From Rhodobacter sp. CZR27 (lineage in GTDB: Bacteria > Pseudomonadota > Alphaproteobacteria > Rhodobacterales > Rhodobacteraceae): DNA of 64,000 bases. The stretch is taken from contig NZ_CP023549.1 in assembly GCF_002407205.1 (NCBI RefSeq), positions 310,001-374,000 of the forward strand. Reading direction: 5' to 3'. The notes beneath the pieces are model-generated. The model saw only the letters and a program-made list of their open reading frames with translations, was not told the DNA's origin and did no database searches. The position numbers were made by a program, and so were the translations under genes. Below, one piece after another: positions 3,459 to 15,319 of this stretch; position 1 is the first letter of the stretch; every line of letters starts with the position of its first letter.

Positions 3459-4460
3459 ATGAGCGACGTGGCCATTTCCGACCTCTCCCCCCGCCCCCGG
3501 CGCGTCTTCATGCTGGGGGCGACCGGCACGATCGGCCGGGCCACCGTGGCGGCCCTGCTCGGGAAGGGGCACGAGGTCGTCTGCTTCCTGCGGCCCCGCA
3601 ACGCCGGCAGCCGCAGCAACCTGCCCGACGGCGCCATCCTGCGCTACGGCGACGTGACCGATCCGCTCTCGCTCGACCGCGACGGCTTCCGGGGCGAGCG
3701 CTTCGATGTGCTGGTGTCCTGCCTTGCCTCGCGCACGGGCGTGCCGCGCGACGCCTGGGCGATCGATCACCGGGCACACAGCGACGCCCTCGCCGCGGCC
3801 CGCAGGGCCGGCGTCACCGAGGTGGTGCTGCTTTCGGCGATCTGCGTCCAGAAGCCGCTTCTCGCCTTCCAGCAGGCCAAGCTCGCCTTCGAGAAGGAGC
3901 TGATCGAGTCGGGCCTCACGTATTCCATCGTGCGGCCCACGGCCTTCTTCAAGTCGCTCTCGGGCCAGGTGGAGCGTGTCCGGCAGGGCAAGCCGTTCCT
4001 TCTGTTCGGCGATGGCACCCTGACCGCCTGCAAGCCGATCAGCGACGGCGACCTTGGCCGATACATCGCCGAGTGCCTCGACGCTCCGGGCCGCCGGAAC
4101 CGGATCCTGCCGATCGGCGGTCCGGGCGCAGCGATCACCCCCCGCCAGCAGGGCGAGGACCTGTTCCGTCTCCTCGGCCGCGATCCGAAGTTCCGGCAGG
4201 TGCCGGTCGCGCTGCTCGACACCATCATCGCGGTGCTCGACACCCTGGGGCGGGTGGTGCCGAAGCTGCGGGACAAGGCGGAGCTGGCGCGGATCGGCCG
4301 CTACTACGCGACGGAATCCATGCTGGTCCTCGACCCCGCGACAGGGCGCTACGATGCCGACGCGACACCCTCGGCCGGAAGCGAGACGCTGCACGAGTTC
4401 TACGCCCGCCTGATCCGAGGCGAGGCCTCGGTGGATCTCGGGGAGCACGCGGTGTTCTGA
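3459..4460 (+). CDS. bciA: Divinyl (proto)chlorophyllide a 8-vinyl reductase
   Basis: NADPH-dependent reductase of 333 residues that converts the C8 vinyl group of chlorophyllide precursors to ethyl in (bacterio)chlorophyll synthesis. A Rossmann GATGTIGR dinucleotide motif lies at residues 20-27. The protein resembles BciA along its length, with the RPTAFFKSLSGQVERVRQGKPF segment and the KPISDGDLG segment characteristic of this atypical SDR. An AAGGA precedes the ATG by about 8 nt. It stands alone rather than in a photosynthesis gene cluster, as it does in Rhodobacter relatives. This gene is the main evidence that the host is a phototroph. Confidence 0.9.
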   Translation: MSDVAISDLSPRPRRVFMLGATGTIGRATVAALLGKGHEVVCFLRPRNAGSRSNLPDGAILRYGDVTDPLSLDRDGFRGERFDVLVSCLASRTGVPRDAWAIDHRAHSDALAAARRAGVTEVVLLSAICVQKPLLAFQQAKLAFEKELIESGLTYSIVRPTAFFKSLSGQVERVRQGKPFLLFGDGTLTACKPISDGDLGRYIAECLDAPGRRNRILPIGGPGAAITPRQQGEDLFRLLGRDPKFRQVPVALLDTIIAVLDTLGRVVPKLRDKAELARIGRYYATESMLVLDPATGRYDADATPSAGSETLHEFYARLIRGEASVDLGEHAVF

Positions 4461-4555: not shown

Positions 4556-4720
4556 CTAGGGGCACCTGTCGTATCGGGCGGCGACGCGCCGCCAGTCCTT
4601 GGGGCGGCCGAACATGATCTCGATGCGGTTGCGCCGCCGGTCGTATTTCACGGCTATCCTGCGGGACTTCCGGCCGGGGAGCCCTTCACCCCTGTCTTCC
4701 AATGCGTCTCGTAGGTCGTC
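4556..4720 (-). pseudogene. IS5-family transposase C-terminal remnant
   Basis: The minus strand encodes about 54 residues matching the end of an IS5-type DDE transposase. The catalytic-glutamate region NRIEIMFGRPKDWRR is retained, including the R-x3-E-x6-K spacing, and it is followed by VAARYDRCP, then a stop at 4556-4558. The stretch before it (PGRKSRR..KYDRRRNRIE) looks shortened relative to intact relatives, and nothing upstream continues the transposase. No terminal inverted repeats were found. It abuts the stop codon of the BKACE gene, marking an old insertion at the edge of the ben-cat island. Confidence 0.7.
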
Positions 4721-5546
4721 AGGCCGCCAACCGGAGGATGTCACGTGCCTGCTGCCAGGTTGCGACGGGGCGTTCGTGCTTCCCGCAAAGCTCCACCACA
4801 CGGCGGACCAGCGCCGCATTGGACGGCGCGAGCCGGTCCTTGTCGAGGCGCACGTTGTCCTCGAGGCCGGTGCGGGCATGACCGCCCGAAGCGACTGCCC
4901 ATTCGTTGACGACGATCTGGTGGGCGCCGATACCGGCCGCACACCATGGCGCATCGGGACCGAAGAGCCGGTGGACCGTGTGGACGTAGAACTCGAAGAC
5001 CTCGCGGTCGACCGGCATCGCGTTCCTCACGCCCATCACGAACTGCACGTAGGGCGTTGCCCGGATCCGGCCGTCGCCGTGCATCCGTGCCGCCTGAAAG
5101 ATATGGCTGAGGTCGAACGCCTCGATCTCGGGCTTCACGTCATACCTGATCATTTCGGCGGCCAGCCAGTCGACCAGATCGGGCGGGTTCTCGTAGACGC
5201 GGGTCGGGAAATTGTTCGACCCGACCGAGAGCGACGCCATGTCGGGGCCGAGCGGCAGCATGGCGCCACGCTCGCGACCGGCGCCGGACCGCCCGCCCGT
5301 GGAAAGCTGCACGATCATGCCGGGACAATGCCGCTCGATCCCTTCCTTCAATCGCGCGAACCTTTCGGGATCGCTGGTCGGCCTGCCCTTGTCGTCTCGC
5401 ACATGACAATGGGCGATGGCGGCCCCCGCCTCGAAGGCTTCCTGTGTCGACTCGATCTGCTCGGAGATCGTGATCGGAACGGCCGGGTTGTTGGCCCTGG
5501 TCGGAAGCGACCCGGTGATGGCCACACAGATGATGCACGGTTTCAT
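4719..5546 (-). CDS. Beta-keto acid cleavage enzyme (BKACE), probably acting on beta-ketoadipate
   Basis: A 275-residue BKACE (DUF849) TIM-barrel Zn enzyme. The family transfers acetyl-CoA onto a beta-keto acid to give acetoacetate and a new acyl-CoA. Zn ligands are visible as H46 and H48 (AHCHVRDD) and E229 beside D230 (GLEDN), with conserved S82 and R225. Position 14 is Leu; in the founding aminohexanoate-cleaving enzyme I recall a Glu there that contacts the substrate amino group, so an uncharged or acidic substrate is likelier. It is the last gene of the ben-cat operon and overlaps pcaD by 4 bp. Inferred reaction: beta-ketoadipate plus acetyl-CoA to succinyl-CoA plus acetoacetate. Confidence 0.88.
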   Translation of the reverse strand: MKPCIICVAITGSLPTRANNPAVPITISEQIESTQEAFEAGAAIAHCHVRDDKGRPTSDPERFARLKEGIERHCPGMIVQLSTGGRSGAGRERGAMLPLGPDMASLSVGSNNFPTRVYENPPDLVDWLAAEMIRYDVKPEIEAFDLSHIFQAARMHGDGRIRATPYVQFVMGVRNAMPVDREVFEFYVHTVHRLFGPDAPWCAAGIGAHQIVVNEWAVASGGHARTGLEDNVRLDKDRLAPSNAALVRRVVELCGKHERPVATWQQARDILRLAA

Positions 5547-6412
5547 GGCTTACCCTCGGATTTTGTGCTGTGGTTTGCGGGTGGTGGGCTGTCGGGGCCC
5601 ATGCGGTGCGGTGCAGGGTCGGCACGGCCGGAGGCCTTGAGGAAATCCCGCAGAACGGCGTTGAACGCCGCCGCGGATTCGAGGTTCAGGAGATGTCGGC
5701 CCGGCAGCGCGGCATGGTGTCCGTCCTGCACGGCGCGGGCGATCGCCTCCAGATCGGCGGGGGGACAGACCGGATCGTCTGCGCCGGAGATCGCAAGAAG
5801 CGGAGCCGCTATCTCGGCCAGCCGCTCCCGCAGATCCGCCCCGGCAAGAGCCGCGCAGCACCCGGCATAGCCAGCGACCGGCGTCGCGGCGAAACCGTCC
5901 AGGATCGCACCCACGGCGGCGGGGCGGGCCGCACGAAAAGCCGGAGTGAACCAGCGCTCGCCCGTCGCGGCAACGAGGCCTCTCAGGCCGTTCGCTTCCA
6001 CTTCGGCCCTGCGGGCGTTCCAGCTTTCGGCAGTTCCGATCCGGGCCGCCGTGGCGCATGCAACGACCCGGTCAAACCGATCCCCGGCGTGGATGGCCAG
6101 CCATTGCGCGGTCAGTCCGCCGATGGACAGGCCACAGATATGCGCCCGCGCAATGCCAAGCGCGTCCATCAGCGCGATCACGTCTCTGCCAAGATCGGCC
6201 AGGCTGTAGGGGGGCGTCGGCGTGCCGGACTTGCCATGCCCGCGGCGGTCATAGCGAAGGATGCGGAAATCCTCCGAGAGATCCGCGACCTGCGCGTCCC
6301 ACATGTGCAGGTCGGTGCCGAGCGAATTGCAGAATACCAGCCAGGGCCTGGCCGCGGCGGCCCCGTCGATGCGGTAGTGAAGGTGGTGGGTCGGAATGTG
6401 CAGATCGGGCAT
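5543..6412 (-). CDS. pcaD: 3-oxoadipate enol-lactonase
   Basis: Alpha/beta hydrolase of 289 residues that opens beta-ketoadipate enol-lactone to beta-ketoadipate. The nucleophile elbow GLSIGG places Ser96; the acid is in SGADDPVCP and the histidine in PGRHLLNLE. The ATG at 6412 gives the family start (MPDLHIPTHHLHYRIDG). The last 25 residues are a low-complexity, proline-rich tail. It lies 61 bp after the transporter gene and overlaps the BKACE start by 4 bp (ATGA), so the two are translationally coupled. The operon context (catBCA, benABCD) fixes its pathway step. Confidence 0.9.
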   Translation of the reverse strand: MPDLHIPTHHLHYRIDGAAAARPWLVFCNSLGTDLHMWDAQVADLSEDFRILRYDRRGHGKSGTPTPPYSLADLGRDVIALMDALGIARAHICGLSIGGLTAQWLAIHAGDRFDRVVACATAARIGTAESWNARRAEVEANGLRGLVAATGERWFTPAFRAARPAAVGAILDGFAATPVAGYAGCCAALAGADLRERLAEIAAPLLAISGADDPVCPPADLEAIARAVQDGHHAALPGRHLLNLESAAAFNAVLRDFLKASGRADPAPHRMGPDSPPPANHSTKSEGKP

Positions 6413-6473: not shown

Positions 6474-7802
6474 TCAGGTGGCGGCAAGCTGCACGGCGAC
6501 GCGAGGGCGGCTGTTGCTCAGCGCGAAGACCAGCATCGCGAGGGTCGAGATGACCGCCGGAAGGGCGAAGATCAGGAAGTTCTGGCCCAGCGGAAGCTCC
6601 TGAGCCAGCAAGACTCCCCCCAGCGTCGGCCCGACGATCGCGCCGATCCGCCCCACGCCCGAGGCCCATCCCAGCCCGGTCGAGCGCACCGACAGGTCGT
6701 AGAGTTGTGCGACGCTCGCATAGAGCAGGATCTGCGTGCCGATCGTGGTGGCGCCGGCGATGAAGACCAGCGCGAACAGCAGCCCCGGCGCCGGGTTTGC
6801 CCCGATCAGCGCGATGGCTACCGCGGCCGCCGCGAAGAAGCCGACGACGATCCTGGGCAGCCCGAACCGGTCTCCCAGCCGGCCGCCGAGGATCGCCCCC
6901 GCCATGCCGCCGAAGTTCAGCGAAAAGAGCGACAGAAGGCTCGCCCGCTCGGCATAGCCGGCCTCTTGCAGCACCTTGGGCAGCCACGAGGACAGCAGGT
7001 AGACCAGAAGCAGGCAGCAGAAGAACGACAGCCACAGCATCAGCGTGCGCAGCGTGCGGCCGTGGCGGAACAACTCCGCGACGGAGGCCGAGGTGCCGCG
7101 GGCCTCGGGAAAGACCAGCCGGTCATCGGCCGCCAGCGGCATGTCGCTGATCCGGGCGAAGACACGCTTCGCCTCGTCCTGCTTGCCCTGCCGGATCAGG
7201 AAGCCCAGCGATTCCGGCAGTTTCCACAGGATCAGCGGCAGCAGGACCAGCGGGATGGCCGCGATGAAGAACATCGGCTGCCAGCCGAAGCCGGGGATGA
7301 TGCCGATGCCCAGACCGGCCGCGACCATGCCGCCTATCGAATAGCCCGAGAACATCAGCGCAACCATCGTGCCGCGCAGGCGCTTCGGCGCATATTCGTT
7401 CATCAGCGCCACGGCATTCGGCATCAGCCCGCCGCAGCCCAGCCCGGCGATGAAGCGGAAGATCTTGAACTGCTCGGGCGAGGTGGCGAAGCCCGTCAGC
7501 AGGGTCGCGGTGGTGAACAGCACGAAGCTGATCGCCACGCCCTTCTTGCGGCCGATCCGGTCGGCCAGCGGCCCGAGGATCAGCGCCCCGAACATCATCC
7601 CGAAGAGCGCCCAGGCCTGCAGCGCGCCCGCCTGCGGCTTGGTCAGGCCCCACTCCGAGATCAGCGTCGGCAGCACGGTTCCGGCCACGAACACGTCATA
7701 GCCATCGACCACCAGCAGCGTGCCGCAGAGACCCACCACCATCCATTGAAACCGCCCGAACGGGCCATGTTCCATCGCCTCGCTCACGTCGATCGTGCGC
7801 AT
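6474..7802 (-). CDS. Aromatic acid:H+ symporter (AAHS family MFS), benzoate uptake
   Basis: Twelve-helix MFS transporter of 442 residues of the PcaK/BenK type. The loop 2-3 signature LADRIGRKKG and the family helix-1 motif DGYDVFVAG, which carries the acidic residue needed for aromatic acid transport, are both present. A strong GGGAGGAG precedes the ATG by 7 nt. It sits between benD and pcaD in the operon, so benzoate is the most likely substrate; 4-hydroxybenzoate or muconate cannot be excluded from sequence. Confidence 0.88.
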   Translation of the reverse strand: MRTIDVSEAMEHGPFGRFQWMVVGLCGTLLVVDGYDVFVAGTVLPTLISEWGLTKPQAGALQAWALFGMMFGALILGPLADRIGRKKGVAISFVLFTTATLLTGFATSPEQFKIFRFIAGLGCGGLMPNAVALMNEYAPKRLRGTMVALMFSGYSIGGMVAAGLGIGIIPGFGWQPMFFIAAIPLVLLPLILWKLPESLGFLIRQGKQDEAKRVFARISDMPLAADDRLVFPEARGTSASVAELFRHGRTLRTLMLWLSFFCCLLLVYLLSSWLPKVLQEAGYAERASLLSLFSLNFGGMAGAILGGRLGDRFGLPRIVVGFFAAAAVAIALIGANPAPGLLFALVFIAGATTIGTQILLYASVAQLYDLSVRSTGLGWASGVGRIGAIVGPTLGGVLLAQELPLGQNFLIFALPAVISTLAMLVFALSNSRPRVAVQLAAT

Positions 7803-7842: not shown

Positions 7843-8628
7843 TCAGCCCGTGTCGCCTCCCGCGACGGGCAGAACGGTTGCGGTGATGTAGGAGGCCTCG
7901 TCCGAGGCCAGGAAAAGGATCGGCGCCGCCTGTTCCTCGATGGTGCCGTAGCGTTTCATCAAGGCCGACTGCTTCACCTGCTCGACCACCTCGGCCATCC
8001 ATTGCCGTTCGGCGTCACTGTCGCCGCTGGCATTGCGCGGAACGCGGCGGGGCGGCGCTTCCGTGCCACCGGGCGCGGTGGCCACGACGCGGATGTTGTG
8101 GGGCGCCATCTCCATCGCCAGCGACTGCGTGATGGCGTTGACGCCCCCCTTGGCTGCCGAATAGGGCACGCGGTGAATGCCGCGCGTGGCGTTCGAGGAC
8201 ACGTTGACGATGGTGCCACCGCCGCGCGCCCGCAGATGCGGCAGGACGGCGTGGCAACAGTAGAGCGTCGGCATCAGCGAGCGGCGGATCTCGGCGTCGA
8301 TCTGGGCCGGCTCGAACTCGGCGAAGGGCCGCATCCGGATCGCGCCGCCGACGTTGTTGATCAGGATGTCGATGCCGCCGAAGGTCTCGACGGCCTGACG
8401 CATGGCGGCATCGGCGCCGTCCCATGTTTCGAGATCGGCGTTGCAGGCGGCGGCATTCTGCCCGGCTTCCGCCGCGACCTCGGCCACGAAATCGGCCCGG
8501 TCCACGAAAAGGACCTTGCCGCCCTCGGCCGCCGCCCGCAGGGCCACGGCGCGGCCGATGCCCTGCGCGGCCCCGGTCACGACAAGCACCTTGCCGGCAA
8601 AGCGCCCGGTGAAGACGGCGCCGGTCAT
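7843..8628 (-). CDS. benD: Benzoate cis-diol dehydrogenase (1,6-dihydroxycyclohexa-2,4-diene-1-carboxylate dehydrogenase)
   Basis: Short-chain dehydrogenase of 261 residues that oxidises and decarboxylates the benzoate cis-diol to catechol with NAD+. The cofactor motif TGAAQGIG lies near residues 19-26, NNVGG at 91-95, the catalytic serine at 144/145, and YSAAK gives Tyr156 and Lys160. The start at 8628 overlaps the benC stop by 4 bp, so it is translationally coupled. Function follows from the benABC genes directly before it. Confidence 0.92.
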   Translation of the reverse strand: MTGAVFTGRFAGKVLVVTGAAQGIGRAVALRAAAEGGKVLFVDRADFVAEVAAEAGQNAAACNADLETWDGADAAMRQAVETFGGIDILINNVGGAIRMRPFAEFEPAQIDAEIRRSLMPTLYCCHAVLPHLRARGGGTIVNVSSNATRGIHRVPYSAAKGGVNAITQSLAMEMAPHNIRVVATAPGGTEAPPRRVPRNASGDSDAERQWMAEVVEQVKQSALMKRYGTIEEQAAPILFLASDEASYITATVLPVAGGDTG

Positions 8629-9653
8629 GCGATGGCCTTCAGGGGCGCGTTGGGGGTGAACTTCTCGTAGTGGAAGCTCGCTGCCTTGACGCCGGTCTCG
8701 TCCAGATAGCGGCGGACGGCATCGACCATTGGCGGGGGACCGCAGAGATAGATGTCCGCCTCTCCGGTGGCCAGCATGTCCCCGGGCATGTGCTGCGTCA
8801 CCCAGCCCTTGCGCGGGTGGTCCGAGGTTTCCTCGGCCACCACGGTGGCAAAGGTAAAGTTCGGCAGGCGGCGGGTGTAAGCCGCGATCCGGTCCACCAG
8901 AATCAGGTCCAGATCGCGCGTCACGCCATAGATCAGGTGGATCTGGCGGCGCGAGCCGGCCCGGGCGAGGACCTCCAGCATGGACAGGAAGGGCGCAAGC
9001 CCGGTGCCGCCGGCAAGGAACAGGAGCGGGCCGTCGCCGTCGCGCAGGTAGAAGCTGCCCATCGGCCCGGTCAGGGTCAGCCGGTCGCCCGGCTTCGCCC
9101 GCGCGAGCCAGTTCCCCATCACCCCGCCGGGGATCTTCTTGATCAGGAAGCCCAGCGTGCGCTCGCCCGGCCCCGTGCTGAAGGAATAGGACCGGCACGC
9201 GCCGCTGCCCGGCACGTCGATGCCGACATACTGCCCCGGCAGGAAGGCCGGTGCCTCTGCCCCTTCATCGGTCGCGAGTTCCAGCACCACCGCCGCGTCG
9301 TGGTGCGGCTCGATCCGGGAGACGGTGGCCGCGAAGGACTGCTGGCCGGTCTTGCAGGCGAGCGACGTGGTCGGGACCGACAGCACGCAGTCGGAGGACG
9401 GCACCATCTGGCAGGTCAGCACCAGCCCCTCGGCCGCCTCGTCCCCGGTCAGGGCGTCGTCGATGTAATCCTCGCCCAGGTCATAGGCGCCGCTTTCCGC
9501 GCGGCACTTGCAGGTGCCGCAGACGCCGTCGGAGCAGTCCATCGGCAGGTTGATCCTGTTGCGGAAGGCGGCGTCGAGAACCTTCTCGCCCGGCTTGCAA
9601 TCGACGAAGCGGGTCACCCCGTCCTCGAAATTCAGTGCGATCCGATAGCACAT
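8625..9653 (-). CDS. benC: Benzoate 1,2-dioxygenase electron transfer component
   Basis: NADH-dependent reductase of 342 residues feeding electrons to BenAB. An N-terminal plant-type [2Fe-2S] ferredoxin domain has Cys40, Cys45, Cys48 and Cys81. It is followed by an FAD-binding domain with the RSYSFS motif and an NAD-binding domain with GGTGLAPFLSML. This ferredoxin-first order is the class IB reductase arrangement of benzoate and toluate dioxygenases. A GGAGGAAG stands just ahead of the ATG. The 3' end overlaps benD by 4 bp. Confidence 0.95.
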   Translation of the reverse strand: MCYRIALNFEDGVTRFVDCKPGEKVLDAAFRNRINLPMDCSDGVCGTCKCRAESGAYDLGEDYIDDALTGDEAAEGLVLTCQMVPSSDCVLSVPTTSLACKTGQQSFAATVSRIEPHHDAAVVLELATDEGAEAPAFLPGQYVGIDVPGSGACRSYSFSTGPGERTLGFLIKKIPGGVMGNWLARAKPGDRLTLTGPMGSFYLRDGDGPLLFLAGGTGLAPFLSMLEVLARAGSRRQIHLIYGVTRDLDLILVDRIAAYTRRLPNFTFATVVAEETSDHPRKGWVTQHMPGDMLATGEADIYLCGPPPMVDAVRRYLDETGVKAASFHYEKFTPNAPLKAIA

Positions 9654-9690: not shown

Positions 9691-10206
9691 TCAGACGTGA
9701 TAGACGTCGATGACCTGGCGGATGTAGTCGTTCTTCAGGACGATCTTCTTGGCCGCGATCAGCAGGCCGGCGCCGTCCCGGCGCAGGGTGACGAACATGG
9801 TTCCGAAGAACTGGTCCGTGACCTGATAGCGGTGGTTGAGCGTGTGGAAGTTGTAGCGGACATCCACTTCGGAGCCGCGATCCGCGACCACCTCGACGTT
9901 CGAGACCGTGTGGCTGGTGCGGGGTTCCGGCGTGGATGCGCCCGACCGTTCCGTCTTGATGCGGAACACCCGGTCCTCGAGCCCCTCGCGGTTGGGATAG
10001 TACATCAGCGAGATCTCGGACTGCGGGTCCTCGGTCGTCTGGTCGTCGTCGTCCCAGGCCGGCATCCAGTAGGTCGCGTCGGGGGCATAGCAGCCCAGCC
10101 ATTCGTCCCACTGCCGATCGTCCAGAAGGCGCGCCTCGCGGTAGAGGAATGCGCAGATCGTGCCGTAGTCGAGACCCGTGCCGGCGGTGTTCATGTCGAG
10201 GCTCAT
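9691..10206 (-). CDS. benB: Benzoate 1,2-dioxygenase small (beta) subunit
   Basis: Ring-hydroxylating dioxygenase beta subunit of 171 residues, which packs against the alpha subunit in an alpha3beta3 oxygenase. It has the family's cystatin-like fold sequence: [18 protein letters not shown] near the N-terminus and DATYWMPAW about residue 45. The ATG at 10206 overlaps the benA stop by 4 bp; longer upstream frames are benA shadows. Confidence 0.93.
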
Positions 10207-11585
10207 GCTGCATCTCCTGCCTTCGCGGTCACCCGCCCGCCGGCCTTCTCGGCCGCCAGCGCGTTGCGCATCGCCTTGGCCCAGTAGTCGTGCTGGCAGA
10301 CGAACAGGCCCTCGTCCTCGCTGCGTTCGCCCGACAGGCGCGGGTTCAGCCCCATGCGGCGGGCGTTGTCGTCCGGGCCCGCGATCCACAACGGCGCTCC
10401 GCGCGACATGTCGTTGTAAAGCGGAGTGGAGCCGGCATAGGCTGTCTGGCACGCCCGGAATTCCTCGAGGTCGTCGGACGTGCCCATGCCCGAGACGTTG
10501 AAGAAATCCTCGTACTGGCGGATGCGGGTGGCACGGTCGGCCGCACTTTCCCCGCGGGGTGCGAAGCAGAAGATCGTCACCTCGGTCCTGTCTACCGAAA
10601 AGGGGCGGACGACGCGGATCTGGGTGCTGAACTGGTCCATCAGGAACACGTTCGGATAGATCCCCAGATTGCGCGTCTGGTTGATGATGAAACCTGCCTT
10701 CTCCTCGCCCAGACGCGAGACAAGCTCTTCACGCCGGTTCCAGACAGGACGCACCTCGGGGTTCCTGGTGTTGGTCCAGAGCAGGATGTGGCCGTTCTCG
10801 AAGCCGTAGACGCCCGCAACCGACTTGCTCCAGCTGTTCGCATCGACGGCCTTGGTGCCGGTTTCGCTGCGCCGTTCCATGGTGGTGGCATAGTTCCAGT
10901 GGACCGAGCTGACGTGGTAGCCGTCGCAGCCGTTCTCCATCTGCAGCTTCCAGTTGCCGTCGTAGATGTAGGAGGAATTGCCGCGTAGAACCTCGAGCCC
11001 CTCGGGCGCCTGATCGACGATCTGGTCGATGATGACCTTCGTCTCGCCCAGGAAGTCCTCCAGCGGCGCCACGTCGGGGTTCAGGCTGCCGAAGAGGAAC
11101 CCGCGATAGCTTTCGAACCGGGCCACGCGCGTCAGGTCGTGCGAGCCGTCCTTGTTGAACTGGTCGGGATATTGCGTGGTCTTCGCGTCCTTGACCTTCA
11201 GCAGCTTGCCGGTGTTGGAAAAGGTCCAGCCGTGGAAGGGGCAGGTGAAGCTGCCCTTGTTGCCCTGCTTGCGGCGGCAGAGCATGGCGCCCTTGTGGGC
11301 GCAGGCGTTGATGACGGCGTTCAGCGACCCGGCCTTGTCGCGGGTGATGACGATTGGCTGCCGGCCGATCCAGGTGGTGTAGTAATCGTTGACCTCGGGG
11401 ATCTGGCTTTCATGCGCCAGATAGACCCAGTTGCCTTCAAAGATGTGCTTCATCTCCAGTTCGAACAGATCCTCGTTCGTGAAGATGTCGCGGCGGCAGC
11501 GGTAGAGACCGGCTTCGGCGTCGTCCTGAACGGCAACGGCCAGAAGGTGATCCAGATCGCGTGCCTTCTCGATGATCGCGGACAT
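10203..11585 (-). CDS. benA: Benzoate 1,2-dioxygenase large (alpha) subunit
   Basis: Rieske non-haem iron oxygenase subunit of 460 residues that adds O2 across C1-C2 of benzoate. The Rieske [2Fe-2S] ligands are Cys95, His97, Cys115 and His118 (CAHKG and CPFHGW). The mononuclear iron site is visible as His224 and His229 within [13 protein letters not shown], with the bridging Asp221 that carries electrons between subunits. The ATG at 11585 is preceded by a GGAG, and the frame beyond it lacks family similarity. It follows catA after a 112-bp gap, the largest in the operon, so a second promoter there is possible. Confidence 0.95.
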
Positions 11586-11697: not shown

Positions 11698-12636
11698 TCA
11701 GGCCGCCGCGCGGCGGCGCTGTTCGTTGATCTGGTTGTCGACGCCATCAACCAGCGCGGTCAGGTGGATGTCGAAGCTGATTTCGGCGAAGGGGCCGTTG
11801 AGGCCGTTGGCGTGGATGCTCTCCTCGTCCGTCCGCTCGATGACGTGCGGCACGAGGCCCTCGCGGGTGGCATAGGCGAAGTCGTCGTCGATCAGCGGAT
11901 CGCCCTCGATGTTGATCTGGGTGGTCAGCTTGCGGTGGCCCTCGCCGCTGACGAAGAAGTGGATATGCGCCGGACGCTGGCCGTGGCGGCCAAGCGCAGT
12001 CAGCAGCTTTTCCGTCGGGCTCCCCGGCGGCACGCCATAGCCCGAGGGCAGGATGCTCTGGAGCCGGTAGCGGCCCTCGGCGTCGGTGATGATGGTGCGG
12101 CGCATGTTGAAGGGCGCCTGTTTGCCGGTCGGGTCGAAGTGCGAGTAGAAGCCGCGGGTGTCGCAGTGCCAGACCTCGACCTTCGCGCCGGCCAGCGGCT
12201 TGCCGTCGGACCCATGCACCACGCCGCGCATGATCAGCGTATGGCCGTCGGCGTCGGTGCCGTCGTCCAGCCGCGCGAAGCCCACCGCCTCCGGCGCCCC
12301 GGCGACATAAAGCGGCCCTTCGATGGTGCGGGGCGTGGGGTTCTCGATCCCCAGCGCGGCGTCGATGGCGTCCAGACGCTCGTCGATGAAGTGATCGATC
12401 CCCAGCCCGGGCGAGATCAGACCCGCCTGCCCGGCCGCGCCCAGGTCATTCAGCCAGGCCACGCCGGTCCAGTACTCGTCGGGGGTGATGTCGAGATCGT
12501 CGATGGCCTTGAACAGGTCCGACATCAGCCGATGCACGATCTGCTTCATGCGCGGGCTGCCTTCGTTGGTGTTCAATCCGCTGAGTTCCCTCAGGAACGC
12601 CTGCACCTCGGGTTGGTCGAAGATCTTGACAGTCAT
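11698..12636 (-). CDS. catA: Catechol 1,2-dioxygenase
   Basis: Intradiol Fe(III) dioxygenase of 312 residues that cleaves catechol to cis,cis-muconate. The four iron ligands fall at Tyr164 (RGFYSHF), Tyr200 (LPSGYGVP), His224 and His226 (RPAHIHFF), the same numbering as the Acinetobacter enzyme. The N-terminal helical linker domain of the catechol subfamily is present. The ATG at 12636 has an AGGAGGAG 6 nt upstream and is preferred over a start 27 nt earlier. Confidence 0.96.
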
Positions 12637-12705: not shown

Positions 12706-12996
12706 CTAGCTGTCGTCTCCTTCGATGGCCGAGGGGTGGCGCAGCAGCGGCGTGACCTTGATCTCCATGAAGGGGAACAGGGGCAGGCCGGACAGGATCT
12801 CGTGCAGTTCGGCATTGTCGCGCACGTCGAAGATGCTGACGTTTGCGTAGTGCCCGGCAATCCGCCAGATGTGGCGCCACGTGCCCTTGCGCTGCAGGTC
12901 CTGCGAATAGAGCTTCTCGCGCGCCACGATATCCGCCCGTTCCCCGGCGGAGAGGTCGCGCGGGATCTTCACGTCCATGGTCACGTGATAGAGCAT
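12706..12996 (-). CDS. catC: Muconolactone delta-isomerase
   Basis: Small cytoplasmic isomerase of 96 residues, the usual length, which converts muconolactone to beta-ketoadipate enol-lactone. The family start MLYHVTMDVKIP and the EKLYSQDLQRKGTWRHIWRI segment are recognisable. It starts 2 bp after the catB stop, so the two are coupled. It is followed by catA after 69 bp. Confidence 0.95.
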   Translation of the reverse strand: MLYHVTMDVKIPRDLSAGERADIVAREKLYSQDLQRKGTWRHIWRIAGHYANVSIFDVRDNAELHEILSGLPLFPFMEIKVTPLLRHPSAIEGDDS

Positions 12997-12998
12997 CG

Positions 12999-14195
12999 TC
13001 ACACCTTTCCGCCCGGCAGGCTGATCGTCTTGCGGATGCCCTCGCGGGCGAAGAAGGCCACGCGATCCTCGTCCAGCGTCAGGCCAAGGCCGGGCCCCAT
13101 TGGCACGGTCAGTTCGAAGTCGCTGTAGTCCAGCGGCTCGGCCAGGATTTCCTCGGTCAGAAGCAGGGGGCCGAACAGTTCGGTTCCCCATTGCAGGTTG
13201 GCGAAGACCGCAAAGGCATGGGCCGAGATCACCGTGCCCACCGCGCCTTCCAGCATGGTGCCGCCGTAAAGGCCGATCCCGGCCGCATCCGCGATGGCCG
13301 CCACGCGCAGCGCGTTGAAGGCGCCGCCGCTCTGTTCAAGCTTCACCGCGAACACATCCGCGCCGTGGGTGCGGGCGATCTCGAAGGCACTTTCCGGGCC
13401 GGTCAGCGATTCATCGGCCATCAGCGCCACGGGGAAGCGCCGCACCAGCCGGCTCAGCGCCGCGGTGGAGGCCACGGGCTGTTCGACCAGTTCGCAGCCC
13501 GCATCGGCAAGGGCGGCCATGCCGAAGGCGGCATCGCCCTCCGACCAGGCCATGTTCACATCGACGCGCACCGCCGCGCGTTCGCCAAGGGCGGCCTTGA
13601 TCGCGGCCACATGGGCAATGTCCTCGCGGATGGCGCGCGCTCCGATCTTCAGCTTGAAGACCCTGTGGCGGCGCAGATCCAGCATCTGTTCCGCCTCGGC
13701 GATGTCGCGCGCCGTGTCGCCCGAGGCCAGCGTCCAGGCCACCGGCAGCCGGTCCCGGCGCCGGCCGCCCAGCAACTCGCTGACCGGCAGGCCGAGGCGC
13801 TTGCCGTGGGCATCCAGAAGCGCGGTTTCCACCGCGGACTTGGCAAAGCGGTTGTCCTTCACCATCTTGCCGATCCGCGCCATCAGCGCCTGCACCCGCG
13901 TCGCATCCTGGCCGAGCATGACCGGCGCGACCCAGGTGTCGATGTTGGTCTTGATGCTTTCCGGGCTTTCCCCGCCATAGGCCAGGCCGCCGATGGTGGT
14001 GCCTTCGCCGATGCCGACGATGCCGTCGCTGCAATGGACCCGGACAAGCACGAGGACCTGTCCGTTCATCGTCGCCACCGACAGCTTGTGCGGCCGGATG
14101 GTCGGAAGGTCGACGATCACCGTCTCGACCTGCGTGACGACGGGGCTGGCGGTATCGGCGGGGTGGTGGATGCGGGGGGCGAATGACTGGTTCAT
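12999..14195 (-). CDS. catB: Muconate cycloisomerase
   Basis: Enolase-superfamily lactonising enzyme of 398 residues that turns cis,cis-muconate into muconolactone. The active-site lysine motif FKLKIGAR and the metal ligands in RVDVNMAWSEG, ELVEQPV and MADESL appear in the expected order. It is the first gene of the minus-strand operon, opposite the LysR gene. The start at 14195 has no strong Shine-Dalgarno sequence. Length and motifs are normal for CatB; a chloromuconate role is less likely because catA and benABC accompany it. Confidence 0.94.
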   Translation of the reverse strand: MNQSFAPRIHHPADTASPVVTQVETVIVDLPTIRPHKLSVATMNGQVLVLVRVHCSDGIVGIGEGTTIGGLAYGGESPESIKTNIDTWVAPVMLGQDATRVQALMARIGKMVKDNRFAKSAVETALLDAHGKRLGLPVSELLGGRRRDRLPVAWTLASGDTARDIAEAEQMLDLRRHRVFKLKIGARAIREDIAHVAAIKAALGERAAVRVDVNMAWSEGDAAFGMAALADAGCELVEQPVASTAALSRLVRRFPVALMADESLTGPESAFEIARTHGADVFAVKLEQSGGAFNALRVAAIADAAGIGLYGGTMLEGAVGTVISAHAFAVFANLQWGTELFGPLLLTEEILAEPLDYSDFELTVPMGPGLGLTLDEDRVAFFAREGIRKTISLPGGKV

Positions 14196-14247: not shown

Positions 14248-14272
14248 ATACGATACCCTCAGGGTATGGTAT
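14248..14272. promoter_or_regulatory. CatM/BenM-type LysR operator (nested ATAC/GTAT dyad)
   Basis: A near-perfect dyad lies between divergent catB and the LysR gene. The inner pair is ATAC at 14253-14256 and GTAT at 14264-14267 with exactly 7 bases between, the ATAC-N7-GTAT consensus described for BenM and CatM. A second ATAC (14248-14251) and GTAT (14269-14272) flank it symmetrically. Only three positions break symmetry over 27 bp. It lies about 53 bp upstream of the catB start, suited to activation of the catabolic operon and autoregulation. Confidence 0.8.
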
Positions 14273-14356
14273 CCTGGAGCAGTCGAGGTTCAGCGACTTG
14301 CCGCGCTGCATAATACTGGAGACGGCGGCATGAATGCTGCTGCGCCAAGGGAGGCT

Positions 14357-15319
14357 ATGATGGACCTGCGCCAGTTGCGCTATTTCGCGGCCGTTGCGCG
14401 CGAGCGGAACTTTACCCGCGCGGCGGAGATCCTGAACATCGCACAGCCCCCGCTCAGCCGTCAGATCCAGTTGCTGGAGGAGGAACTGGGCGTCACGCTG
14501 ATCGTGCGCAAGAGCCGCCCGCTGAAGCTGACCGACGCGGGCCGCCTCTTTCACGAACAGGCCCTGCAGGTGTTGGGTCGCGTCGATCAGATGAAGGATG
14601 CCACGCGTCGGGTGGGCCTGAACCGGAACCGGGTGCTCTCCATCGGCTTCGTCGCCTCGACCCTATACGGGGGCCTCCCCTCGCTGGTCAGGAAGCTGCG
14701 CCAGAATGCGCCCGAACTCGACATCCAGTTGCTCGAGATGCTGTCGATCCAGCAGGTCCCGGCGCTGAAGGAAGGGCGGATCGACCTGGGCTTCGGCCGC
14801 CTGAAGCACAGCGACCCGAACATCTCGAGCACCGTCCTGCGCGAGGAGCGGCTGGTGGCCGCGCTGCCCCAGGGCACGGCTCTGGCCGGGGACAGCCGGC
14901 CGATGCCGCTGACCGCGCTGTCGGGCCAGAAGCTGATCGTCTATCCCAAGGAGCCACGTCCCAGCTTTGCAGACCAGATCCTGAACCTGCTGCAGGACGA
15001 GAATGTTCGCCCGTCCGAGGTGCTGGAAGTGCGCGAGATCCAGACGGCGCTCGGGCTGGTCGCGGCCGACTCGGGGATCTGCATCATCCCGGCCTCGGCC
15101 CGGCAGATGCGATCGGACGTGCTCTATCGGTTGATCGACGGGCCGCGCGCGGTGTCTCCGGTCATCCTCAGCCATCGCGAAGGCGATGTCTCGCGCTACC
15201 TCGACCTCGTCAAGCGCCTGATCGGCGACATGTATGCCGAGAACCCGGCTTGGCTCGAGGCCAGCAACTTCGGCTGCCTGACCAGCAAAGGGCTCGACGC
15301 GGAGACGGCTGAAGACTGA
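14357..15319 (+). CDS. LysR-family regulator of benzoate/catechol degradation
   Basis: LysR-type activator of 320 residues in the CatR/CatM/BenM group, which senses cis,cis-muconate (BenM also benzoate). The N-terminal winged helix is clear (MDLRQLRYFAAVARERNFTRAA, then AQPPLSRQIQLLEEELG). The effector domain contains the SIGFVASTLYGGLP segment typical of this group. An AAGGGAGG sits just before the ATG at 14357, making it better than the 27-nt-earlier start. It is transcribed divergently from catB over a canonical operator. Which of the two named regulators it matches in effector range cannot be told by eye. Confidence 0.9.
   Translation: MMDLRQLRYFAAVARERNFTRAAEILNIAQPPLSRQIQLLEEELGVTLIVRKSRPLKLTDAGRLFHEQALQVLGRVDQMKDATRRVGLNRNRVLSIGFVASTLYGGLPSLVRKLRQNAPELDIQLLEMLSIQQVPALKEGRIDLGFGRLKHSDPNISSTVLREERLVAALPQGTALAGDSRPMPLTALSGQKLIVYPKEPRPSFADQILNLLQDENVRPSEVLEVREIQTALGLVAADSGICIIPASARQMRSDVLYRLIDGPRAVSPVILSHREGDVSRYLDLVKRLIGDMYAENPAWLEASNFGCLTSKGLDAETAED

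Follow-up and report, generated by a model that had tools for sequence, protein, structure and literature searches.

A benzoate-catechol gene run that ends in BKACE

The window analysed here is a stretch of 64,000 nucleotides from Rhodobacter sp. CZR27 (C2:310001-374000), in which ten minus-strand genes run from 14195 to 4719 in the order catB-catC-catA-benA-benB-benC-benD-benK-pcaD-BKACE, with a LysR gene divergent from them. The features are listed below in window coordinates, with bit scores and model cut-offs in brackets.

4719..5546, minus strand: BKACE, predicted 3-oxoadipate:acetyl-CoA acetyltransferase, 275 aa (NF053568 494.2 bits, cut-off 350; PF05853 304.4, cut-off 24.8)
5543..5546, minus strand: ATGA, 4 nt common to the pcaD stop and the BKACE start
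5543..6412, minus strand: pcaD, 3-oxoadipate enol-lactonase (TIGR02427 329 bits, cut-off 255.85)
6474..7802, minus strand: MFS aromatic acid transporter, benK/pcaK-like (TIGR00895 371 bits, below cut-off 418.55)
7843..8628, minus strand: benD (NF040811 436.7 bits, cut-off 380)
8625..9653, minus strand: benC (NF040810 535.9 bits, cut-off 430)
9691..10206, minus strand: benB (TIGR03232 250.7 bits, cut-off 225.55; start codon chosen in the analysis)
10203..11585, minus strand: benA (TIGR03229 737 bits, below cut-off 780.95; start codon chosen in the analysis)
11698..12636, minus strand: catA, catechol 1,2-dioxygenase (TIGR02439 444.5 bits, cut-off 392)
12706..12996, minus strand: catC, muconolactone isomerase (TIGR03221 145.9 bits, cut-off 130.6; start codon chosen in the analysis)
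12999..14195, minus strand: catB, muconate cycloisomerase (TIGR02534 551.7 bits, cut-off 334.95)
14253..14267, no strand: ATAC-N7-GTAT palindrome, candidate BenM/CatM-type operator, between catB and the LysR gene
14330..15319, plus strand: divergent LysR regulator, BenM/CatM-like (BenM 257.8 and CatM 241.6 bits, below cut-offs 600 and 580)

The initial annotation had claimed that every step from benzoate to beta-ketoadipate is encoded here, and each step could indeed be matched to a gene by NCBIfam models, at strengths for which chance is no concern. The benA product scored far lower on the anthranilate model (442.6 bits) than on the benzoate model, and BenM and CatM were the top-scoring models for the LysR gene. 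Coupling of the beta-keto acid cleavage enzyme (BKACE) to pcaD, also claimed, is seen as the ATGA overlap at 5546-5543; benC and benD overlap by the same ATGA, and benA and benB by four bases with the chosen starts.

ATAC-N7-GTAT, which we take to be the BenM/CatM operator pattern, has a single match in the window, and 2 of 100 shuffles contained one. The palindrome recurs at the equivalent site in two Paracoccus ben-cat-BKACE operons (L052 and L036) and is absent from a third related operon (L025), whose benA matches piecewise. Among the reference genes, both Paracoccus operons keep the LysR-to-BKACE order of the window, although the PcaD of L036 is just 40% identical to the window PcaD. No sigma-70-type promoters were found, and terminator-like sites numbered 5, compared with 4.2 in shuffles. 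Taken together, the gene order, the overlaps, the LysR gene and the operator-like palindrome make BKACE plausibly the last gene of an operon controlled by benzoate or muconate.

Downstream of BKACE, a candidate transposase remnant at about 4560-4714 on the minus strand was left unconfirmed (39 aa without a Pfam family). A plus-strand gene at 3459-4460 encodes an NAD(P)-binding protein that matched solely NAD_binding_10, Epimerase and NmrA in Pfam and nothing in NCBIfam at 1e-15; presumably it resembles divinyl chlorophyllide reductase.

Family membership, conserved residues and phylogeny of BKACE

NF053568, whose cut-off the window protein exceeds, is the NCBIfam equivalog model named "3-oxoadipate:acetyl-CoA acetyltransferase". 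Kce, the enzyme of lysine fermentation (PDB 2Y7D-2Y7G), belongs to the same family, shares H46 and H48 with the window BKACE and catalyses the same acetyl-CoA-dependent type of cleavage. Its substrate, however, is 3-keto-5-aminohexanoate, and the window protein fails the Kce model NF052387 (248.7 bits versus a cut-off of 382). Solved relatives include 3fa5 (541 bits), 3chv and 3no5, labelled as of unknown function or uncharacterized, and the Kce structure matches at 174 bits. Among plasmid records, 40 listed of 85 matched, 37 were annotated and 3 were without annotation; all 37 annotated matches were named "3-keto-5-aminohexanoate cleavage" protein or enzyme.

Aligned to Kce, the window protein retains H46, H48, S82, R225, E229 and D230, which we take to bind the metal or act in catalysis in Kce, and differs in having Leu14 for Glu14 and Arg86 for Ala86. 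Among 81 sequences, made up of the window protein and 80 relatives, every one has H46, H48, S82, R225, D230 and the distinguishing Arg86, and 80 have E229. No residue difference between BKACEs in pca or cat context (45 rows) and the rest (32 rows) passed our filter, so the substrate is not readable from single residues.

In a tree of these proteins, the window BKACE falls inside a supported set (99/94) of 21 rows. The pca clusters account for 14 of these and cat clusters, the window's among them, for 4; a further 2 lack marker genes, and 1 comes from a cluster with an unassigned dioxygenase. Context labels change 25 times on the tree compared with 36.7 in shuffles, and are thus clustered, yet far from a single origin each. 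While within-genome paralogues may contribute to these changes, the simplest reading is that the BKACE gene has moved among branches converging on beta-ketoadipate.

PcaIJ and PcaF appear to be missing from the genome

The genome (4.44 Mb, four contigs, 100% complete) encodes a single PF05853 protein, the BKACE. No CoA-transferase (PF01144) or thiolase (PF00108) match lies within the window at E 0.001, in line with the earlier statement that pcaIJ and pcaF are not found there; all PF01144 matches are on C1, and C2 has just one thiolase match, at 246189-246935. The whole-genome search that the initial annotation had proposed gave four matches to the PcaF model (top 6.7e-122), none above cut-off, and no PcaIJ-type pair by comparison with one PcaJ reference. 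Both PcaIJ, judged by that one reference, and PcaF thus look absent from the genome. Eight thiolase-N matches were found, four of them full-length, the best reaching 408 bits on the PcaF model (TIGR02430, cut-off 597). One thiolase is BktB-like, scoring 660 bits on PRK09051 against a cut-off of 565, and there is a phaA-phaB-like pair of a thiolase and an acetoacetyl-CoA reductase (TIGR01829 371 bits, cut-off 302).

CoA transferases comprise one pair, unlinked to the ben-cat operon and covered by the comparisons that follow, and a weak CoA_trans match in a 530-aa frame (C1:1554693). The pair scored 330 bits on TIGR02428 and 234 bits on TIGR02429, models that both mix pcaI/J and sco. Its B subunit is 51% identical to the one PcaJ reference used, and the pair is 80-89% identical to pairs near BKACE in other bacteria, versus 40-44% (A) and 50-53% (B) to five pairs adjoining PcaF. 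Judged by these identities to BKACE-linked and PcaF-linked pairs, the pair looks ScoAB-like.

A second PcaD-like hydrolase (C1:998297-999040) scored 284 bits on TIGR02427 and is 38% identical to the operon PcaD; within 19.5 kb around it no other reference gene was found. The description of the organism as a phototroph is supported in so far as the genome has two reaction-centre genes (Photo_RC, C1:2230338-2232003).

A predicted route through acetoacetate

We put at about 0.8 the probability that benzoate breakdown in this organism ends via BKACE, followed by ScoAB and a housekeeping thiolase, in place of PcaIJ and PcaF. BKACE would convert beta-ketoadipate and acetyl-CoA to succinyl-CoA and acetoacetate; the single putative ScoAB pair would then turn acetoacetate and succinyl-CoA into acetoacetyl-CoA and succinate; and the thiolase would split acetoacetyl-CoA with CoA into two acetyl-CoA. 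Alternatively, acetoacetyl-CoA reductase could send acetoacetyl-CoA towards storage polymer. What we infer from the genes here is the BKACE substrate, its reaction and the hand-over to ScoAB; that the net equation (beta-ketoadipate + CoA -> succinate + acetyl-CoA) equals the sum of PcaIJ and PcaF is arithmetic on established reactions. The initial annotation had likewise put BKACE in the place of PcaIJ and PcaF, and this part of it is well supported by the family membership, by the gene context in relatives and by the lack of any PcaF or PcaIJ-type match across the genome. Its description of the route as a shortcut does not stand: activation and cleavage of acetoacetate have yet to follow, most likely by ScoAB and a thiolase, so there are three steps versus two, and general ketone-body enzymes replace two dedicated ones.

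The same enzymes could act differently, with ScoAB itself serving as PcaIJ on beta-ketoadipate, a beta-oxidation or BktB-like thiolase serving as PcaF, and BKACE being auxiliary. The BktB-like thiolase of this genome would suit such an arrangement, and Roseovarius nubinhibens has been read in this way: according to PMC12442348, a mutant in its CoA transferase, which was taken as PcaIJ, cannot grow on 4-hydroxybenzoate, whereas pcaF or a second thiolase can each be lost without stopping growth. There, the phenotypes are explained by thiolase cross-talk and the residual substrate use of the CoA-transferase mutant with citation of Bastard 2014. BKACE plus ScoAB predicts the same phenotypes, however, since acetoacetate produced by BKACE would need ScoAB, and direct action of ScoAB gives no reason for BKACE to sit in the operon. 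We therefore regard this alternative as improbable.

Gene context of BKACE in relatives

We examined gene context in the best 80 of 588 BKACE relatives, some of whose loci end at a contig edge. Classified by markers, 40 loci carried pcaHG and 4 catB; a catA-like gene was present at about 30% identity in 4 and at 24-27% in 12, and 20 had none of these markers. Four of these 20 still matched other pathway genes: pcaB, pcaC and pcaD in L051 and L055; benABC, pcaD and scoAB in L091; and pobA in L063. BKACE lies inside the pca cluster in two Roseovarius loci (L032, L049). Clustering of neighbouring ORFs was rejected because spurious high-GC ORFs confounded it.

A scoA-like gene was found near BKACE in 10 of the 80 loci (L014, L026, L038, L044, L048, L057, L059, L064, L077 and L091), and in nine it adjoins BKACE in reference-gene order, the exception being L014, where it follows pcaB. 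A further scoA-like piece, at the stretch end of L054, was dropped by the coverage filter. In Phaeobacter inhibens P88, the genes form one run, pcaC-pcaH-pcaG-BKACE-CoA transferase A-B-pcaD-pcaB. These ten loci and the P88 run support the predicted hand-over from BKACE to ScoAB.

The 12 loci with the distant catA-like gene (24-27%) are L033, L035, L045, L047, L050, L054, L057, L059, L064, L073, L074 and L077. Of these, 11 have a LysR gene, 10 a benC-like reductase and four a scoA-like gene; L057 also has an alpha/beta hydrolase. The three weaker catA-like genes that were scanned (L061, L034 and L057) match intradiol dioxygenase models below every cut-off, and an iron-alcohol-dehydrogenase gene in L061 could be a maleylacetate reductase. 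In five loci (L021, L029, L030, L042 and L043), the BKACE shares 78-82% identity with the window protein and no reference gene lies in the stretch; inspection by eye suggested an amidohydrolase-like gene in L021 and an upstream sugar-isomerase-like gene in both L029 and L043. On the Sulfitobacter sp. D7 plasmid p5SUD7 (L141), pcaCHG-BKACE-pcaD-pcaB lies about 10 kb from IclR-CoA transferase A/B-pcaF, so the plasmid appears to carry both pathway ends side by side.

Some close BKACEs thus lack aromatic reference genes nearby, which counts against the predicted route: 16 of the 80 had no reference pathway gene in the flank, some being on short contigs. Together with the promiscuity of the BKACE family (excerpt of PMC4922564), this would be expected if the enzyme acted on a different beta-keto acid, such as one derived from a substituted catechol, with unsubstituted beta-ketoadipate being handled otherwise. 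Yet members of the same subfamily adjoin pcaHG, cat genes and further genes for intradiol dioxygenases, and the window protein scores above an equivalog cut-off for beta-ketoadipate, which makes a different substrate very unlikely.

Distribution of BKACE and PcaJ across the family

We then counted BKACE, by the NF053568 cut-off, in 198 genomes of the same family representing 197 genera, and found it in 141. As a test of replacement, PcaF presence or absence was rejected because it did not separate genomes with and without BKACE (87 of 127 versus 17 of 31 among PcaD-positive genomes, p 0.20), probably as a result of PaaJ, which we take to be included in the PcaF model (TIGR02430). It was replaced by a PcaJ reference, which gave a clear identity gap: 24 of the 198 genomes matched at 79-94% and five at 57-61%, the remaining matches listed were at or below 54%, and 14 genomes had no listed match. 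The five genomes at 57-61% were counted as PcaJ-negative, and a single reference may miss other PcaJ types. Among the matches listed, 18 of the 24 PcaJ genes at 79-94% lay within 300 nt of PcaF.

Among 158 genomes with a PcaD match above cut-off (PcaD-positive), 113 had BKACE without PcaJ, 14 had both, 7 had PcaJ only and 24 had neither; the corresponding numbers for the 40 genomes without PcaD were 14, 0, 3 and 23. PcaD matches in these counts can include other hydrolases, of which the second match in our own genome may be one. BKACE accompanied PcaD, being present in 127 of 158 PcaD-positive genomes and in 14 of the 40 others (Fisher p 7.7e-8, relatedness ignored), which speaks for the BKACE reading. 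In PcaD-positive genomes, PcaJ was present in 14 of 127 with BKACE versus 7 of 31 without (p 0.14, relatedness ignored). BKACE and PcaJ are therefore not significantly anticorrelated, and replacement is common but not a rule. The 14 genomes with both, which show that the two are not mutually exclusive, and the 24 with neither stand against the BKACE reading.

From the 80 loci we chose 33 named BKACE genomes (27 with pca context, 2 with cat and 4 with other). In 12 of them a CoA-transferase B subunit fell into a class with lower scores (258-302 bits), and in G209 this was the sole B subunit; one of the 33 lacked a B subunit of any class. The lower-scoring pair adjoined PcaF in 5 of the 33, with 13 of 14 such sites inspected, and this too counts against the BKACE reading. 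In the sample, the genus has one further genome (G051), which carries PcaF and no BKACE above cut-off, as a recently acquired or decaying operon with a dispensable BKACE gene might predict, but the ten reading frames here are all open and tightly spaced or overlapping and the operator-like palindrome is common to two of three related operons, leaving this explanation next to no weight.

Discussion

The initial annotation held the use of BKACE as the terminal step of a benzoate operon in a phototroph to be worth showing; the route is not a new proposal, having been predicted before. In Ralstonia eutropha H16, a COG3246 gene of the same family is linked to benzoate and catechol genes, lying with catBCD under CatM/BenM, and cleavage of beta-ketoadipate, the same reaction, was suggested (excerpt of PMC6449761, 2019); ATAC or GTAT gave no match in the main text of that paper. 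That bacterium belongs to another class; here, the genes form a single catBCA-benABCDK-pcaD-BKACE run, reaction-centre genes are present, and PcaF and PcaIJ were checked genome-wide. In Methylobacterium, pca clusters contain kce (DUF849) and are missing pcaIJ and pcaF, and action on beta-ketoadipate was proposed (excerpts of PMC8963497, 2022, and PMC12379598, 2025); kce serves the protocatechuate branch there, whereas the window BKACE sits in the benzoate-catechol branch. Moving a pcaHGBL and possible kce cluster to M. extorquens PA1 gave growth on protocatechuate, a transfer that leaves room for the host's own CoA transferases and thiolases (excerpt of PMC12379598). Given these predictions and the NCBIfam name, the window case is a further member and not a new kind.

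What this analysis adds is the family-wide distribution of BKACE versus PcaJ; among the papers listed in searches of the open-licence literature, none described BKACE as the normal end of the pathway in this family. According to the excerpt of PMC5064897, pcaIJ are missing in Phaeobacter, Pseudophaeobacter, Leisingera and Ruegeria, seemingly with a 3-oxoacid CoA-transferase (EC 2.8.3.5) instead. Sulfitobacter D7 grows on benzoate (excerpt of PMC9873259), which is not decisive because p5SUD7 also has a CoA-transferase pair beside PcaF.

On balance, we lean towards BKACE with ScoAB and a thiolase, rather than PcaIJ with PcaF, as the default end of the beta-ketoadipate pathway in the family, with BKACE as a shared terminal module that moves among the intradiol branches, catechol and protocatechuate included. 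Such a default would explain why pcaIJ and pcaF are missing in many Roseobacters, and why R. nubinhibens that has lost its CoA transferase fails on 4-hydroxybenzoate, apart from some residual use, whereas its thiolase mutants grow. The single locus is of modest interest; the family-wide question is of more, and is now testable. If the reading is true family-wide, a misleading lysine-fermentation annotation would be corrected, and a large group of bacteria from water and soil would end a textbook pathway in another way. In these bacteria, aromatic breakdown would always pass through acetoacetate, and the flow into storage polymer could begin directly at acetoacetyl-CoA.
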